64,000 bases of DNA, taken from NCBI RefSeq assembly GCF_017916365.1, contig NZ_JAFMSU010000001.1, positions 1,641,028 to 1,705,027 on the forward strand, read 5' to 3'. This DNA is from Rufibacter roseolus (lineage in GTDB: Bacteria > Bacteroidota > Bacteroidia > Cytophagales > Hymenobacteraceae). The translations under genes were made by a program, and so were the position numbers. The notes beneath the pieces are model-generated. The model was not told where the DNA came from. It did not search any database and saw only the letters and a program-made list of their open reading frames with translations. Below, piece by piece: positions 17,743 to 51,641 of this stretch. The first letter of the stretch is position 1, and every line of letters starts with the position of its first letter.

Positions 17743-20115
17743 CTAGCTTAGAAGTTCTTTAGAGGGGGTAGGCGATTGATATTTGTTTTCATAGCCGTAG
17801 CCATATCCGTATCCGTTGCCGTTTTCTTTTCTGGCATCGTTCAGCACAATCATTGGATGAGGCAGGGTTTTGTTTCTGTAAATCTCATCAATCATTTCAA
17901 TCTGTTTCCTGAAGGTGTAATTGTACCTCATTAAGTAAATGGTTGAGTCCACCAGGGTGCTTAACACCAAGGCATCTGCTACCTGCCCAATTGGGGAGGT
18001 ATCAATAATGATATGGTCAAAGCTTTGCTTTACTTCATTTATCAAATGGCCTAGTTTTTTTGATACCATCATTTCTGCAGGATCTGGAGGAATGGGCCCC
18101 GCCGAGATAGCATATAGCTCTGGTACCATTTCCGTTAATCTGATCAGATCATGAATCTGAACTTTATCGGATACCAGGTAATTGCTTACCCCAAGTCCTG
18201 TTGACAGACCCAGTTCGGCTGAAAGGCGCGGAGATCTTAAGTCAAGGTCAATGACTAGTACTTTTTTTCCGGTTAGCACCAGGCTGGCGGCCAGGTTAAT
18301 CCCAAAAAAGGTTTTCCCCTCGCCACTCATGCTGGATGTAATAAGCATGACCTTGTTTTCTTTGTCTACTGCGGCAAAGTGAAGTTTTGCCCTTATAAGC
18401 CGGAACAACTCTACAATGGGGGCCCGGCTTCCTTTCTTAACAACCACAAAGTCTGGTGAGTCCTTTTGGCATAACTCACCCAAAATTGGGGTGTTAGTGG
18501 CGTCTTCAATCTCTTTCTTCGTTTGAATTTTGTTTTTTAAGATGTTTCTCAGATAAATCCCTGCAAATGGAATGAGCAAGCCTAATAAAACTGACATCAG
18601 GTAGACAGTAGATTTACTGGGCAATACTGAAAATCCTTCCACAATAGCGGGGTCAATGATGCGGATGTGGGATACCGAGGAAGCCAGTGACAGGGCTGTT
18701 TCCTCCCGTTTCTGTAAAAGGTACAGGTAGAGGTTCTGCTTTATACTCTGTTGCCGGTTAATCTCTAATAATTGCCGCTCCATTGAGGGCACTTTCTTAA
18801 TCTTTGATTTGAATTGGCTTGAGGTTGCCTTTAGTTTATTACTGGTAATGAGCAAGCTTCTTTTAATGTTTCCAAGGTTCTCCAGCAGGTTTACCCTGAG
18901 GTTGGCAAGTTGCTCGTTTATGTTTTGGATTAAGGGACTATTGGGGTTGGTTGTCCGGAGCATGCGCTCCCGTTCTAATTGCAATTCATTGAATTTGGCA
19001 ATGAGGCTCATTAGGGTTTGGTCCTGAATGCCTAATGAACTTGGTACCATCCGGTATTCCCCTTTAGCCTGGCTGAGGTATTTCTCTATGGATCTGAGGA
19101 TATCTATTTGGATAGCCCATTCAGAAAGCTGTTTATTATAATCGCTTGCCTGCGCCAAATAGTCACTTGCCTGGGTATTGACATCGGTGACTTCATTCTG
19201 GCTTTTATATTGTTCTACATTCTTCTCAACACCAGAGAGCTCGGTAGTTAAGTATTTAAGCCTGTCGTCTATGAAAGCGAGGGTATTGGTAGCCAGAACG
19301 TTTTTGTCTTCAATAGATTCTTTGTTGTAGAGTTCAACCAGCTTATTAAGAATATCTTTGGCTCTTTCTGGCTTGGAGTCTGTGAGTTCTAAACTGATTA
19401 CGTTTGTCCAGGTCTTGCCTGCCTGCATTACCTTAATGGAGTTATGATAGCGGCTGGCAACATCTTGAATGTTCTTGAACTGAACCTTGACCTGGTTTAG
19501 GTTAGAGGAAGGGGTGGGGTTCAGCTTATAAGTGGCCAGCACGGTAAAAGTGGCATAGGGCTTTTGAATTCTCTTGCCAAAACTATGGATGCTTCTTTTG
19601 CCATCCTGTTCTTCAAGTACAAAACTATTGTTATCCTTGGTATAGATGGTGAGTTCTTTATTGTAACCTGAGCTATTCAGGCTCTCCACAATAAGTTTTA
19701 TAGGCAACTCCTTTCCATAGATTTCTATATCTTGGAATTGACCCTCAATGTAATAGTTGGTGAATAGCTCCAGGTCTTTGACCACCCTTTCCATCAAGGT
19801 TTTAGAGTCTAGAATCAAGATTTCATTGTCAACTACCTTCGTAGAGTTAAACATATCCAAGTCACTGAAAGCCCCTGCCCCAGAAATACCCTGCCCTCTT
19901 TGGTAGTCTTTTATAAGCAACTTGCTGACCACTTTGTACTGAACACTGGTGTGGTAGCGTAAGTACATAAAAGCAGCTCCCACACTCAAGAGGACGCCAA
20001 TTAAGAATAAATACCAGTACCTGGAGTACTGGATGAAGGTGTTTCTAATATCATTGGTCTCCTTTTTCTCCGCTTTCAACGGAAACAACTCCTCTGTTCC
20101 TGCCAACCTTTGCAT
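17743..20115 (-). CDS. Wzc-like polysaccharide co-polymerase and tyrosine autokinase
   Basis: A 790-aa inner-membrane protein that controls polymer length and export by cycles of tyrosine phosphorylation. A first membrane helix lies near ~33-52 (WYLFLIGVLLSVGAAFMYL). A large periplasmic Wzz domain with a long coiled-coil stretch (~260-460) follows, and a second helix lies near ~505-525. The cytoplasmic BY-kinase has Walker A (SSMSGEGKT, ~600), Walker A' (VLVIDLDLRSP) and Walker B (HIIIDTSP). The C terminus carries the Tyr cluster GYGYGYGYENKY, the usual autophosphorylation site. It starts 11 bases after the Wza-like gene, and the two are surely co-transcribed. Confidence 0.93.
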   Translation of the reverse strand: MQRLAGTEELFPLKAEKKETNDIRNTFIQYSRYWYLFLIGVLLSVGAAFMYLRYHTSVQYKVVSKLLIKDYQRGQGISGAGAFSDLDMFNSTKVVDNEILILDSKTLMERVVKDLELFTNYYIEGQFQDIEIYGKELPIKLIVESLNSSGYNKELTIYTKDNNSFVLEEQDGKRSIHSFGKRIQKPYATFTVLATYKLNPTPSSNLNQVKVQFKNIQDVASRYHNSIKVMQAGKTWTNVISLELTDSKPERAKDILNKLVELYNKESIEDKNVLATNTLAFIDDRLKYLTTELSGVEKNVEQYKSQNEVTDVNTQASDYLAQASDYNKQLSEWAIQIDILRSIEKYLSQAKGEYRMVPSSLGIQDQTLMSLIAKFNELQLERERMLRTTNPNSPLIQNINEQLANLRVNLLENLGNIKRSLLITSNKLKATSSQFKSKIKKVPSMERQLLEINRQQSIKQNLYLYLLQKREETALSLASSVSHIRIIDPAIVEGFSVLPSKSTVYLMSVLLGLLIPFAGIYLRNILKNKIQTKKEIEDATNTPILGELCQKDSPDFVVVKKGSRAPIVELFRLIRAKLHFAAVDKENKVMLITSSMSGEGKTFFGINLAASLVLTGKKVLVIDLDLRSPRLSAELGLSTGLGVSNYLVSDKVQIHDLIRLTEMVPELYAISAGPIPPDPAEMMVSKKLGHLINEVKQSFDHIIIDTSPIGQVADALVLSTLVDSTIYLMRYNYTFRKQIEMIDEIYRNKTLPHPMIVLNDARKENGNGYGYGYGYENKYQSPTPSKELLS
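17794..17824 (-). repeat. Short hexamer repeat encoding the Gly-Tyr tail of the Wzc-like kinase
   Basis: Four Gly-Tyr pairs are coded by alternating GGA/GGC and TAC/TAT codons, giving a degenerate 6-base tandem repeat. It supplies four of the tail tyrosines and could gain or lose units by slippage. Confidence 0.6.
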
Positions 20116-20126
20116 ATCCTTTAACT

Positions 20127-20936
20127 TTAAATGAGTCTGGTAATAATGATGCTTATAAGCGAGATAATGGAAAGCCCAATAGAGATATTGCTTCTGGTAT
20201 TACTCAATTGAGCATCACGGGCTTTGCTTGGTTCTACATAAACAATGTCATTTTGCTGTAGGTAATAATAAGGTGAATTCAATGCCTCTTTTTTGGTTAA
20301 ATCTAACCGTGCGGTGCTGCGTACCCCATCTCTTTCTCTTATAATTAATACGTTTTCTCTCTTGCCATAAATGGTCATATCACCGGCCTGGCCCAATGCC
20401 TCTATTATGTTTACTTTTTGAGTGGGGGCTATATACGTAGAGGGTTTATTTACTTCACCCAGTACCGTGTATTTGAAGTTTATAAAACGGATATTAACAA
20501 TTGGGTTTTTGACATGTTTTTTGATTTCATCGGTCATTCTTAGGGTGGCTTCAGCTTTCGTTAGGCCTGCCAACCTTACCTTGCCCAACACCGGGAAATT
20601 GATCTCCCCATTTTCCTCCACCAGGTACCCCTCCGTTGATACAGTTGTCCTGACTCCATCGCTTGTCATGCCCGGAGTCACCAAACTGCCCCCGTTGAAC
20701 AATATGTTAGATTCTGGATTCAAACTGCTCACTGTTATGCCCAGAATATCACCTGATTGGATTTTGGGTTCATTTGCGTTAGAAATGTCTGTATTAGTTT
20801 CGGTGGAAGATATGTTTTTTAAATCTTCAAAATAGACCAGGTTTTTAGAGGGGCTGCATGAAGTAATTAAGAGTAGTAATATGGTATAAATGAATAGGTA
20901 TTTTTTGATTTTACGTAATCTAATGTTGACCTCCAT
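20127..20936 (-). CDS. Wza-like polysaccharide export lipoprotein (BexD/SLBB family)
   Basis: A 269-aa outer-membrane export protein. A lipobox follows a basic/hydrophobic N terminus (LLLLITSCSPSKN), so Cys27 or so should be lipidated. The Poly_export domain (~60-150: IQSGDILGITVSSLNPES, EENGEINFPVLGKVRLAG) is followed by an SLBB-type region (YTVLGEVNKPSTYI, IIEALGQAGDMT). A C-terminal hydrophobic segment (ISIGLSIISLISIIITRLI) ends the protein. It is the first gene of the - strand operon, and the operon promoter must lie upstream of 20936. It partners with the Wzc-like kinase. Confidence 0.9.
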   Translation of the reverse strand: MEVNIRLRKIKKYLFIYTILLLLITSCSPSKNLVYFEDLKNISSTETNTDISNANEPKIQSGDILGITVSSLNPESNILFNGGSLVTPGMTSDGVRTTVSTEGYLVEENGEINFPVLGKVRLAGLTKAEATLRMTDEIKKHVKNPIVNIRFINFKYTVLGEVNKPSTYIAPTQKVNIIEALGQAGDMTIYGKRENVLIIRERDGVRSTARLDLTKKEALNSPYYYLQQNDIVYVEPSKARDAQLSNTRSNISIGLSIISLISIIITRLI

Positions 20937-21905
20937 GCTATTTTATTGATTAATGTTGTGGTTCCTGTTTTGTGTTTGAAATTATGAATTGACCTTCTTT
21001 TAATCACAGGCCCAATTCATAACCATAGGTAGTTTGGTTGTGTTTTAGGGTGAGTATTGTAGTATATAAGTTTTAACTTTTTAAATGGTGATTTTTATTT
21101 GGGCATATAATGCATGCTTGTCAAGACTTTATATTATTTCTTATCTAAATAGAAGATGCTTTGTTTTATTTAATCTAACTGACCTTGAGCTAAAGTAGAT
21201 CTGCAGTTACTTTAGATAGGTAGTTATTCTCACTTTCTTAAAACGTGAAAGTGAAGAGGAGTAAAACGCGGTTTCTTTGGGTCTCTTTATCTGTACTCAG
21301 CTTAAATTCTATTAGGTATTACAACTGGGGGTTTCAGCAGATCTTGAGTATATCGCAGAGCAACAATCCATATAAAGGTCCACGCATTACAATTTTTTTG
21401 GTGTTTTAAACAGATTATACCCTATCAGACTAAATGTTGTACAAATTACTGTCAGTAGACTTTCCTGAGCTGACCAAGGGAGAGCAAGTAGAGGTTGTAG
21501 GTTTAAATTATGCAATTGTAACTTAATATAAAAATATTTTTCAAAATGATAAAAATAAATTATTGAGTTAGTTATAAATATTATAAAAATGTTTATCTTG
21601 ACGGATGTTTAATGAGCTTTTTGTAGTAATTCTTAAAATTCAGGCGATTTATACCTATAGAGTAGTAAAAACCGAATAGAATAGCTAGTGATCTGGAGTG
21701 CCTTTTGTAGCCTATGTGTTGTACTAGGTGGCAAAAGGTTAATAGATTACCCTATGGGTAAATTGTAGTTTCGTTTGGCTTTGCTTCTATAATAGTACGC
21801 AATACCTTGCATCTTTCTTATGGCAGGATGTAGTGTGTTGTTGCTCAAAATAGGTTTTGGTTGTTGTTTACCGGATTGCATCTTTCTTCCCCCATTCGCA
21901 CCGCC
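20937..21905. other. Long AT-rich intergenic region between divergent glycan genes
   Basis: About 970 bases between the - strand export operon and the + strand GT2 pair, so promoters for both directions must be here. No RNA gene or repeat of the palindrome family was seen. A 30-codon ORF (21434-21526, +, starting MLYKLLSVDFPELTKGEQ) is too short to call and could be a remnant. A 13-base direct repeat TTGCATCTTTCTT occurs at 21806-21818 and 21876-21888, just before the first GT2 gene. I found no convincing TAnnTTTG promoter. Confidence 0.5.
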
Positions 21906-22320
21906 ATGGCCCGCATCCCGTCCACGCCCCCGCCGGTCCCGCCCGTTCCCCCGGGGGAGCACAGGCCCCTGTGGTCGGTGATGATCCCGGCCTACAACTG
22001 CGCCGGGTTCCTGGCCGAGGCCCTCAGGGGCGTGCTGGCCCAGGACCCGGGCCCGGCGCTGATGCAGATCGAGGTGGTGGACGACGCGAGCACCGACGCG
22101 GACCTGGGGGCGCTGGTGCGGGAGCTGGGCCGGGGCCGGGTGGGCTACCACCGCCAGCCCCGCAACGTGGGCAGCCTGCGCAACTTCGAGACCTGCCTCA
22201 CCCGGGCCCGGGGCCGGCTGGTGCACCTGCTGCACGGCGACGACCGCGTCCGGCCCGGCTTCTACGCCAAAATGGAGGGCCTCTTCCAGCGCTTCCCCCA
22301 GGCCGGCGCCGCATTCTGCA
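21896..22320 (+). repeat. GC-rich duplicated coding cassette, copy A
   Basis: 425 bases repeated at 22951-23375 with only three mismatches (21905, the third base of an Arg codon near 22248, and a TTC/CTC change near 22284). It starts 10 bases before the ATG and ends inside the codon run for AAFC. Hand count of 22061-22140 gives 61 G/C of 80, while the 60 bases after the junction (22321-22380) hold 22 G/C. Confidence 0.95.
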
Positions 22321-22916
22321 GAAACAGCTTTATAAATAATAAAGGAGTTTGGTCACATAATACCCCGCTTGAAGCCAATGATGACCTTGTCTTAGATAAT
22401 TGGCTTCTTCGTATTGCGGAGAGGCAGCGTATCCAGTATGTATCTATTGTGGTGCGGCGGGAGGTGTATGAAACGTTAGGTGGGTTCTACGGGATGCCCT
22501 ATGGTGAGGACTGGGAGATGTGGGTACGCATTGCCAGATTTTACCCGGTGGTCTACTCACCCGAAGTCCTTGCCGAATGCCGGATGCATGCTAGTTCCAT
22601 CTCCAGCCGGTTGGGTACTTCTGGCCAAAGCCTTCCTTATCTGATCAAATGCCACACCCTGATTCAAGAGCATATCAGGCAGGCAGATCTACCAGAGAGC
22701 TTAAAGGTCAAAGCTATTGCCAAGGGCAAGCTGCATTGTGCCTTATATTGCCTTTCGTTAGCAAAAGGAATTTACAAGAGAACCCAGGATAGCAGATTGG
22801 CTATGGGATATATTAAATCGGCTTTACGGTTAAGTAATCACCCCCTGGTCTATGTCAGGGTTCTGAAGCTTTGTGTCAAACTTGCCCTTCTGAAACATCA
22901 ACTTTACTTCCTGTAG
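21906..22916 (+). CDS. Mosaic GT2 glycosyltransferase A (GC-rich head, divergent tail)
   Basis: 336 aa. I start at ATG 21906, not at 21861, because the twin gene begins at the same MARIPSTPPP. A Pro-rich leader (to ~20) precedes the GT2 fold: SVMIPAYNCAGFL, VVDDASTD and the DxD-type HLLHGDDRVRPGF near ~110. Residues 1-138 match the twin with a single Phe/Leu change. From ~139 the tail differs but keeps a shared block (RIQYVSIVVRREVYETLGG, then YGEDWEMW), the acceptor-side region of GT2 enzymes. Codon use switches abruptly at the junction. It likely adds a sugar in the nearby glycan pathway; the specificity is unknown. Confidence 0.9.
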   Translation: MARIPSTPPPVPPVPPGEHRPLWSVMIPAYNCAGFLAEALRGVLAQDPGPALMQIEVVDDASTDADLGALVRELGRGRVGYHRQPRNVGSLRNFETCLTRARGRLVHLLHGDDRVRPGFYAKMEGLFQRFPQAGAAFCRNSFINNKGVWSHNTPLEANDDLVLDNWLLRIAERQRIQYVSIVVRREVYETLGGFYGMPYGEDWEMWVRIARFYPVVYSPEVLAECRMHASSISSRLGTSGQSLPYLIKCHTLIQEHIRQADLPESLKVKAIAKGKLHCALYCLSLAKGIYKRTQDSRLAMGYIKSALRLSNHPLVYVRVLKLCVKLALLKHQLYFL

Positions 22917-22950
22917 CAGAATCATATTAGTTCAGGGGTTACACTGTCTA

Positions 22951-23375
22951 TCGCACCGCTATGGCCCGCATCCCGTCCACGCCCCCGCCGGTCCCGCCCG
23001 TTCCCCCGGGGGAGCACAGGCCCCTGTGGTCGGTGATGATCCCGGCCTACAACTGCGCCGGGTTCCTGGCCGAGGCCCTCAGGGGCGTGCTGGCCCAGGA
23101 CCCGGGCCCGGCGCTGATGCAGATCGAGGTGGTGGACGACGCGAGCACCGACGCGGACCTGGGGGCGCTGGTGCGGGAGCTGGGCCGGGGCCGGGTGGGC
23201 TACCACCGCCAGCCCCGCAACGTGGGCAGCCTGCGCAACTTCGAGACCTGCCTCACCCGGGCCCGGGGCCGGCTGGTGCACCTGCTGCACGGCGACGACC
23301 GGGTCCGGCCCGGCTTCTACGCCAAAATGGAGGGCCTCCTCCAGCGCTTCCCCCAGGCCGGCGCCGCATTCTGCA
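22951..23375 (+). repeat. GC-rich duplicated coding cassette, copy B
   Basis: Second copy of the cassette at 21896-22320, offset 1055 bases, three mismatches in 425. Outside it the two genes fall at once to ordinary paralogue-level similarity on the 3' side and to no visible similarity on the 5' side. Confidence 0.95.
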
Positions 23376-23932
23376 ATTATGATGATATAAATGAGTCTGG
23401 TGCATATCTCAGAAGCTATGTGCCTGTACTGGAACAGGCCGGAATCCTGAAAAACGGCCTTTTAACTGTAGCGGGACAGCAGCGCATTCAGTACGTTTCT
23501 ATGGTAGTGCGGCGAGAGGTGTATGAAACATTAGGAAGCTTCTATGGCGTAACCTATGGCGAGGATTGGATCATGTGGGCCCAAATTGCAAAGAAATACC
23601 AGATAGCGTACTCACCTGAACCTCTTGCCGAGTATCGTAAACACAAAGGTTCTATCTCCTGGCCTAAAGCAGAAAATGGGCAAACTACCAAAGACTTGGC
23701 TTATGTCATCAGGCATATAGAAGAGATGTTACCCCTTGAGGGGAAGTACGTCATGGCAAATGCAAAAAAAGGCTGCGCGCTTTACTGCATGGCCAAGGCT
23801 AACGTTATTTGGAAGCAATCCAAGAATCTAACGGCTGCCCGTGATCAGGTAAAATTGGCTTTGAGTCTGGACAGATCTGCCAAACTTTACTACCACATTT
23901 CTAAGTTTTACCTGAAGGTAGCGCTAGGGTAA
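22961..23932 (+). CDS. Mosaic GT2 glycosyltransferase B (GC-rich head, divergent tail)
   Basis: 323 aa, 44 bases after its twin and in the same direction. Its head (1-138) has the same PPPVPPVPPGEH leader, SVMIPAYNC, VVDDASTD and HGDDRV donor/metal-binding motifs as the first copy. The tail begins NYDDINESGAYLRSY and retains RIQYVSMVVRREVYETLGS and YGEDWIMW, then differs in length and sequence. The C-terminal ~80 residues are helical (MANAKKGCALYCMAKANVIW). Head and tail have clearly different base composition. A role in adding a sugar to the surface glycan is inferred from the neighbourhood. Confidence 0.9.
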   Translation: MARIPSTPPPVPPVPPGEHRPLWSVMIPAYNCAGFLAEALRGVLAQDPGPALMQIEVVDDASTDADLGALVRELGRGRVGYHRQPRNVGSLRNFETCLTRARGRLVHLLHGDDRVRPGFYAKMEGLLQRFPQAGAAFCNYDDINESGAYLRSYVPVLEQAGILKNGLLTVAGQQRIQYVSMVVRREVYETLGSFYGVTYGEDWIMWAQIAKKYQIAYSPEPLAEYRKHKGSISWPKAENGQTTKDLAYVIRHIEEMLPLEGKYVMANAKKGCALYCMAKANVIWKQSKNLTAARDQVKLALSLDRSAKLYYHISKFYLKVALG

Positions 23933-49354: not shown

Positions 49355-50547
<1,193 letters not shown>

Positions 50548-50548
<1 letters not shown>

Positions 50549-50584
50549 TTTCAGGCCCACTTTTAGAAAAACAGGCTTGAAACC
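50548..50584. repeat. Dispersed palindrome, copy 8
   Basis: GTTTCAGGCCCACTTTTAGA then AAAACAGGCTTGAAACC. It begins at the last base of the galK stop and fills the gap to galT. Confidence 0.65.
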
Positions 50585-50615
50585 TAGCATCACATCAATC
50601 ACCCAAACAGAACCT

Positions 50616-51641
50616 ATGAATTCATTCGATATCACCGAGCACTCGCACCGCCGCTTCAACCCGCTTTTGGGGGAGTGGGTGCTGGTCTCGCCGCACCGCT
50701 CCAAGCGCCCCTGGCAGGGCCAGCAGGAGTCTACCGAAAAGGACACCCGCCCGGAGTATGACCCCACCTGCTACCTGTGCCCGGGCAACGTGCGCGCCAA
50801 CGGCGAGGCCAACCCCCAGTACCCCTCCACCTTCGTCTTCACCAACGACTTCGCCGCCCTGCAGTCCGACAGCCCCTCCGGTTCCTTTACCAAAGGAGGC
50901 CTGCTGCAGGCGGAGAGCGAGCGCGGCATCTGCAAGGTCATCTGCTTCTCGCCCCGCCACGACCTGACCCTCTCGGACATGGAGACCACCGAGATCAAAA
51001 AAGTCGTGGACCTGTGGCAGGCGCAGTACCTGGAGCTGGGCGCCATGCCCGAGATCTCCTACGTGCAGATCTTCGAGAACAAGGGCTCGGTGATGGGCAG
51101 CAGCAACCCCCACCCGCACGGGCAGATCTGGGCGCAGAGCTCGATGCCCGGCGACCCGGCCAGGGAAACCGTGCAGCAGGAGAACTACTTCCAAGAGAAC
51201 GGCCGTAGCCTCCTCTCTGATTACCTGGCCCTGGAGCTGGAGGAGAACACCCGCATCGTGGCGGAGAATGAGTTCTTCGTGGCGCTGGTGCCCTTCTGGG
51301 CGGTGTGGCCCTTCGAGACCATCGTCATCCCCCGCCGCCACTTTGCGCACTTAGGCGAGATCAATGAAGACGAAAAGCTTGCTTACGCCGATATCATGAA
51401 GCGCCTCTCCAGCGTATACGACCGGCTGTTCCAGACCTCCTTCCCATACTCGGCCGGCCTCCACCAGGCGCCCACCGACGGCAGGGACTACCCCGGCTGG
51501 CACCTGCACATGCACTTCTACCCGCCGCTGCTCAGATCGGCCTCCGTGAAAAAGTTCATGGTGGGCTACGAGCTCATGGCCGAGCCCCAGCGCGACATTA
51601 CCCCCGAGAGCGCCGCCGAAAGACTCAGGGCCCTGCTGTAG
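50616..51641 (+). CDS. galT: UDP-glucose--hexose-1-phosphate uridylyltransferase
   Basis: 341 aa from ATG 50616; a longer TTG-started frame from 50577 would begin inside the palindrome and is unlikely. The enzyme swaps UMP between UDP-glucose and galactose-1-phosphate. Family features are [17 protein letters not shown] near the start, [13 protein letters not shown] (zinc-site Cys pair), and the active-site HPHGQIWAQ with nucleophile His168. [18 protein letters not shown] lies near the C terminus. With galK it feeds galactose into UDP-sugar/glycolysis. No galE or galM is in the window. Confidence 0.97.

Follow-up and report, generated by a model that had tools for sequence, protein, structure and literature searches.

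Two adjacent genes in the Rufibacter roseolus genome begin with almost the same G+C-rich sequence and then part, at the same codon, into unlike and more A+T-rich second halves; the question raised by this locus is what keeps the first halves alike and why they differ so sharply in composition from the remainder of the same genes. The genes lie in a contiguous stretch of 64 kb, which was analysed as a whole and is called the window below; the host genome comprises 5.5 Mb in 7 contigs, and the nearest named relative found was R. hautae. Both are open reading frames on the plus strand that match the glycosyltransferase family 2 (GT2) profile PF00535: gene A (21906-22916, with an in-frame ATG at 21906) encodes 336 amino acids (E = 6e-17) and gene B (22961-23932) encodes 323 amino acids (E = 5e-16). 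We refer to the part up to codon 138 as the head and to the remainder as the tail. In our favoured reading, to which we assign a probability of roughly 0.7, A and B are an old pair whose heads have been homogenised by gene conversion with GC-biased repair between nearby repeats. A first-pass annotation, made from the letters alone, had already described the duplication and the change in composition; our main addition is that the composition step is tied to conversion.

Heads and tails of the gene pair

The shared block measures 425 bp in each gene (copy A, 21896-22320; copy B, 22951-23375; both plus strand), starts 10 bp upstream of the gene A start codon and ends at codon 138. Mismatches occur solely at positions 21905, 22247 and 22284, and 1 of the 138 encoded residues is changed, so that the first-pass count of 425 shared bases with three mismatches and one amino acid change was exact on recount. 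Past codon 138 the aligned DNA of A and B is 52% identical, with 36% identity at third positions. The heads were the sole direct-repeat family detected in the window (seed 16, at least 40 bp), with a spacing of about 1 kb. The same pair is present in the separately assembled genome of R. hautae, with the same gene order, and in Pontibacter pamirensis in a different setting; A precedes B in all three species. Each species carries one tandem pair, with further family members located elsewhere, which argues against unequal crossing-over. A and B are thus an old tandem pair.

Head identity was compared at 20 loci found to contain two family members each. It amounts to 98-99% at three of them, in the window, R. 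hautae and P. pamirensis. In Larkinella soli, where the two are inverted and the second lies in a longer gene, it is 90%, and at the remaining 16 loci 60-73%. Two family members each are also present in Cyclobacterium and Cognataquiflexum (L094:6001-8940 and L114:4936-6969), close to homologs of further genes from the window; one of the two has a tail of B type, and the heads are unconverted (69% and 62% identical, respectively).

At fourfold degenerate sites, the heads of A and B differ at 1/88 positions in the window, 1/80 in R. hautae and 1/69 in P. pamirensis, as against 21/32, 20/30 and 17/30 in the tails (Fisher p of 2e-14, 1e-13 and 3e-10, respectively). Between the window and R. hautae, fourfold differences amount to 21/72 and 29/66 in the tails and 6/80 and 8/79 in the heads; heads are thus closer to each other within a genome than to their counterparts in the other Rufibacter species. 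The first-pass annotation had named two signs of a plain recent duplication, a head confined to these two genes and equal synonymous divergence of heads and tails among relatives: the first was found, while the second is contradicted by these counts.

The trees of the two parts conflict. In the tail tree, the A-tails of the three species form one clade (support 100/99.9), and the B-tails form one together with two Cyclobacteriaceae proteins (100/98); the three B-tails alone are not a clade in the best tree, yet are not rejected as one (p 0.28). A genome-wise grouping of the tails was rejected by the approximately unbiased (AU) test, with p 5e-4 for P. pamirensis and 9e-6 for Rufibacter. The A-type tail of the window (22321-22913, plus strand) is accordingly orthologous to the A-tails of R. 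hautae and P. pamirensis, and the B-type tail (23376-23929, plus strand) to that of R. hautae, within the clade that also holds the P. pamirensis B-tail and the two Cyclobacteriaceae tails. Heads, by contrast, cluster by genome: a clade of the three A heads is rejected by the AU test (p 3e-33), as is one of the three B heads (p 4e-53). Given this conflict and the low divergence of heads within each genome, we conclude that the heads, which evolve in concert, have most probably been homogenised by recurrent intragenomic gene conversion, as the first-pass annotation had suspected. The start of the tract lies no more than about 11 bp from the ATG in all three species, and its end at codon 136-138; these boundaries are explained by the lack of upstream homology and the diverged tails downstream. 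In R. hautae, divergence has begun in the first 20 and last 20 head codons.

The same annotation had also offered the head as a cassette that moves as a unit, and the tails as diversifying by exchange; neither proposal held. In the own genome only the two genes carry the head, the third match being a 65% identical paralog, and among the 59 genomes searched, the own one among them, heads with 95% identity or more turned up in 2, in each case as the A/B pair. The best match on plasmids was 63.7% identical, from Hymenobacter, and none was found on viral contigs. A mobile or shuffled cassette was therefore rejected, as the same head with several tails or at several loci was not encountered in genomes, plasmids or viral contigs. 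A tail swap was rejected likewise: the A-tails of Rufibacter and Pontibacter are orthologous, those of B share a clade, and the gene order is constant.

The composition step

Each head contains 318 G+C in 425 bases (0.75), as opposed to 276/593 in tail A and 252/554 in tail B. The counts given earlier for the junction, 61/80 within the head (22061-22140) and 22/60 directly after it (22321-22380), were confirmed. G+C at third codon positions (GC3) is 0.98 in both window heads and 0.99-1.00 in those of R. hautae; it is 0.51 in the A-tail and 0.48 in the B-tail of the window, and 0.48-0.57 across the Rufibacter tails. The GC3 step falls at the conversion boundary. In Rufibacter the head exceeds the tail by 0.43 to 0.50, while in 98 other family members the difference averages -0.003 (standard deviation 0.066, maximum 0.15). 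The third family member of the own genome, on contig C3, has a head GC3 of 0.56. Over 818 genes of at least 300 amino acids (2.07 Mb of own genome sampled), mean GC3 is 0.68, so that the tails lie below the genome average and the heads far above it. Of the 9390 120-codon windows in a 464-kb own-genome sample, which average 0.69 in GC3, those at the two heads peak highest; the larger sample contains a window of this length, in a duplicated symporter gene, that reaches 1.0.

Substitutions since the split from R. hautae show the same contrast. Synonymous differences were classed as exchanges between G/C and A/T (S-W) or between C and G (C-G). For gene A, the S-W : C-G ratio is 2:5 in the head and 37:2 in the tail (p 3e-4); for gene B it is 3:6 and 48:3 (p 1e-4), the two heads not being independent of each other in these counts. 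C-G exchanges thus make up 5/7 (A) and 6/9 (B) of the synonymous head differences, whereas S-W exchanges make up 37/44 and 48/54 of those in the tails. Few S-W changes together with surviving C-G changes fit a standing bias, whereas an import in decay would be losing G/C. Assuming equilibrium of the heads, the bias required is about 3.8 to 5.7 in population-scaled terms, a rough figure that takes mutation biases of 1 to 3 as given. The protein is affected as well: glycine, alanine, arginine and proline together make up 0.43 of the residues in the window heads, compared to 0.33 in those of P. pamirensis.

The composition step could instead be the scar of a donor, if a G+C-rich head had been imported from a high-GC organism and then copied by unbiased conversion. 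The nearest heads outside the Rufibacter pairs (74-75% protein identity) include those of organisms with high G+C, among them Larkinella and a Hymenobacteraceae metagenome-assembled genome, besides Cesiribacter and P. pamirensis, and the head tree lacks a grouping of Rufibacter with P. pamirensis, though the AU test does not reject it (p 0.31). Among 106 family members, however, head GC3 exceeds 0.86 solely in the Rufibacter pairs, and since the split from R. hautae the heads have been held at 0.98-1.00 with no sign of decay. As the same step is found in unrelated repeats (see below), many separate imports would be needed, and we regard an import as unlikely.

Quite improbable is selection within the head, be it on codons ending in G or C, on an RNA structure or on an overlapping gene, with conversion unrelated to composition. 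Two other frames (+3 and -1) are open throughout the Rufibacter heads, as an overlapping gene would have it, but both are interrupted by 4 to 9 stops in the converted heads of P. pamirensis, as if their openness were a by-product of G+C content; an overlapping gene was ruled out on these grounds. Codon optimisation was ruled out by the low GC3 of the EF-Tu-like (0.41) and EF-G-like (0.47) genes, named by PF00009 and length. Selection would furthermore have to stop at the repeat boundary not just in A and B but also in the genes for CBM6, InlB-type and malectin domain proteins.

Recurrence in other near-identical repeats

A first scan covered 95 sources (1.25 Mb), including the window, one more own-genome locus and some places covered twice. 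Seven rows, corresponding to six places, contained repeats of at least 88% identity, all above their flanks in G+C. Four places encode proteins unrelated to the glycosyltransferases (GTs), with CBM6, InlB-type or malectin domains; the domain scan covered L093 and not L100, its likely ortholog. The other two are the R. hautae head and a non-coding pair in Maribacter (95.8% identity, no usable coding frame), which is only slightly raised (G+C 0.44, flank 0.39). Taken over all scans, near-identical repeats in such repeat-domain proteins have a GC3 of 0.61-0.93, against 0.34-0.51 in the rest of the gene (L045:3-3974, L093:10069-12825, L100:10013-12958, L121:9177-11042, L344, L358 and L363). In L045, two copies of 99% identity reach a fourfold-site G+C of 0.92; a more diverged copy of this domain has 0.60, and the remainder 0.40.

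The systematic scan comprised 143 sources without duplicate places (3.31 Mb) and yielded 78 near-repeat pairs; 6, the Maribacter pair among them, had no usable coding frame and were dropped, leaving 72. The GC3 excess over the rest of the gene was 0.055 at 60-70% identity, 0.048 at 70-75%, 0.097 at 75-80%, 0.161 at 80-90% and 0.406 at 90% or more. The pairs below 80% number 59 (mean 0.06), those at 80-90% 8, and those of at least 90% 5 (range 0.28-0.48), four of which are not GTs. The window and P. pamirensis pairs sit in the 85-88% bin, as their BLAST alignments ran into the tails. With the GT2 rows removed according to a hand-made list, the mean excess is 0.40 for the 4 pairs at 90% identity or above and 0.07 for the 42 pairs below 80% (p 6e-6; p 1e-5 with one row per gene), although two of these four pairs, from two Pontibacter genomes, are apparently orthologous to each other.

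Two recurrence checks were set beforehand, one on plasmids and one on loci picked by repeat family, blind to composition. The latter named two families, InlB repeats and CBM_6, and covered the first: 30 Hymenobacteraceae loci were taken from an InlB-repeat search and scored per locus, as codons covered per identity class, unlike the per-pair scoring above. In each of the 3 loci whose repeats reach 90% identity or more, all from the genus of P. pamirensis, the rise was present, with GC3 of 0.92, 0.92 and 0.89 compared to 0.46, 0.47 and 0.51 in the unrepeated rest, which bears out the prediction for the family covered. At 80-90% identity, the mean over 12 loci is +0.08 (from -0.05 to +0.37), and below 80% that over 14 loci is +0.02. 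In Rufibacter and Pontibacter, the rise thus recurred in 4/4 non-GT pairs and 3/3 loci.

That G+C-rich DNA merely converts or duplicates more readily, so that cause and effect are reversed, seems to us a shade less probable even than selection. An association of paralogy with GC3 in the own genome cannot tell the direction: of the 818 genes, 11 of the 12 with a paralog of at least 79% identity contain a 120-codon window with GC3 of at least 0.93, as opposed to 0 of the 806 others. As this association is confounded and partly of other cause, we do not lean on it. The heads of P. pamirensis (GC3 0.46 and 0.48) and repeats in Persicobacter, by contrast, are near-identical without being G+C-rich; head GC3 tracks tail GC3 in the 98 other family members (correlation 0.90); and the less homogenised L045 copy is intermediate in G+C. 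A plain recent tandem duplication or an assembly artefact, which the near-identical heads alone might suggest, is hardly credible, because synonymous divergence between the tails is strong and each has its nearest kin among the tails of other species, and because the pair occurs in three assemblies of three species, including the independent assembly of R. hautae.

Two duplications in the own genome belong to this association. The galK-galT genes are duplicated (window positions 49355-51638 and G000 C1:1116569-1118789), with galT copies 91.6% identical and GC3 of 0.90 and 0.93. Differences between galT copies number 21/151 and 32/143 within this genome and that of R. hautae, and 42/136, 45/139, 48/138 and 53/140 between them; the copies look concerted, their orthology being judged solely by position, about 28 kb away from the GT pair in either genome. 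A cluster of a sodium:solute symporter, a GH130-like phosphorylase and a cellobiose-2-epimerase-like gene is likewise duplicated (G000 C1:1295373-1299754 and 1379391-1383766; L282, L285 and L286), with whole-gene GC3 of 0.84-0.96, among the highest of the sample.

Several observations weigh against GC-biased conversion as the cause of the step. The P. pamirensis heads are equally converted, yet their excess is merely +0.15 and +0.22 (z 2.4 and 3.4), and one unlinked family member of that species likewise has +0.15; under the best explanation, this weak rise must reflect conversion that set in later or takes place less often, or a bias that is less strong. The heads of Larkinella soli have an excess of merely +0.05 and +0.06. 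The A heads of the two Rufibacter species were not rejected as a clade by the AU test (p 0.10; B heads, p 0.027). Among duplicated genes, GC3 of the GH130-like gene is 0.87-0.90 in 3 of 10 single-copy relatives and just 0.79 in a two-copy relative, and galT has 0.92 in 1 of 14 single-copy relatives. Three rows of dispersed own-genome repeats of 85-89% identity have GC3 of 0.46-0.63. Finally, the plasmid check, which covered 450 kb of R. tibetensis, Persicobacter and Spirosoma plasmids, failed its prediction: the sole coding near repeat of at least 90% (Persicobacter, 97.6%) has an excess of +0.04, and in five other repeats from Persicobacter (90-92.5%), which lack a usable coding frame, G+C is not above that of their locus.

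In other families of the order, recurrence was therefore not found (0/1 coding repeats and 0/5 without a usable frame in Persicobacter, and the small excess in Larkinella), and because of these mixed results the effect is claimed for Rufibacter and Pontibacter only; the negative contrast in Persicobacter may mark where the bias stops. Repeats without a rise in G+C include those of 81-98% identity on plasmids of Persicobacter psychrovividus (L335:8507-11719 and L335:27716-29438), and dispersed own-genome repeats, 78-89% alike and within short, doubtful open reading frames (G000 C1 near 348760, 643282, 1037967 and 2019430).

Mechanism, enzymes and known systems

Under GC-biased conversion, RecA-type exchange between the 425-bp repeats would copy head A onto B or back, while the diverged second halves would block conversion and hold the boundaries to the ATG and codon 138. 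Where the heteroduplex contains mismatches, repair would favour G/C. Both the involvement of RecA and the G/C direction of mismatch repair are our suggestions. Repeated over the lifetimes of species, this cycle would act as a GC drive, taking silent sites to GC3 0.98-1.00 and amino acids toward glycine, alanine, arginine and proline; the same process would mark other nearby near-identical repeats in Rufibacter and Pontibacter. We hold it to be somewhat better than an even bet that in these Hymenobacteraceae conversion of near repeats is so GC-biased that near-identical repeats reach a GC3 of about 0.9-1.0, their tracts become readable by composition alone, and proteins are rewritten.

A and B are predicted to be GT2 glycosyltransferases of the GT-A fold. 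The model of A has a mean predicted local distance difference test (pLDDT) score of 93, and in a Foldseek search it matched chondroitin polymerase (2z86; E 2e-14), with AvpGT, TarS and TarP among the next. A thus resembles GT2 enzymes of the chondroitin polymerase, TarP and TarS kind in fold and in PF00535, but is just 11-21% identical among the 50 alignments listed. In the model, residues 23-138 form alternating strands and helices and contain an invariant or nearly invariant His-Gly-Asp-Asp (110-113), and residues 139-336 contain a nearly invariant Gly-Glu-Asp-Trp (200-203) and the C-terminal helices. In keeping with the known roles of GT2 motifs, we take the head to be the nucleotide-sugar half of the fold and the tail to be the rest with the acceptor side; the profile match, the model and the Foldseek results agree with the first-pass annotation on this division. 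A and B would then share a donor sugar and differ in acceptor. As the head is the nucleotide-sugar half, its conversion might do no harm or even be of use, while conversion reaching the tail would presumably erase acceptor specificity. The genes lie next to divergently transcribed genes for a Wzc-like tyrosine autokinase and polysaccharide export (17743-20936, minus strand), the context being that of an exopolysaccharide locus.

GC-biased gene conversion in bacteria is disputed. Lassalle et al. (2015; PMC4450053) propose that recombination raises bacterial G+C independently of codon optimisation, whereas doubts are expressed in PMC8153448, and Ely (2021) states that it has not been observed. 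The two parts of a gene have expression, location and history in common and differ in conversion, and so provide a natural control that is missing from gene-level statistics. If our reading is true, repair-driven GC drive in bacteria becomes visible inside single genes, some within-gene GC islands that could be read as horizontal transfer are explained, repair bias can reshape proteins, and a simple repeat system is at hand for direct measurement of the bias.

Our searches of the open-access literature brought up no bacterial example of a GC step inside a gene that coincides with the boundary of intragenomic conversion. Lassalle et al. relate G+C to intragenic recombination at the level of genes, while the contrast described here lies inside single genes and between nearby repeats; a search of their text gave no match for 'paralog' or 'Bacteroid'. 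Intragenomic conversion is likewise described for Mycobacterium tuberculosis paralogs (PMC13061034, a preprint), where no link between conversion frequency and G+C content is reported. Intrachromosomal GC-biased conversion with near-identical arms is described for X-chromosome palindromes (PMC8981503), which are eukaryotic and large, as opposed to the direct repeats of 0.4 kb studied here. A parallel is offered by the mammalian gene pairs BMP8A/B, DDX19A/B and TUBG1/2 (PMC2720389): they have concerted and divergent regions, with G+C raised in the concerted part, third positions included, and this was read as conversion with GC-biased repair. In rodent Bmp8a/b the rise at third positions is not significant, whereas in the bacterium described here it leads from about 0.5 to 0.98.

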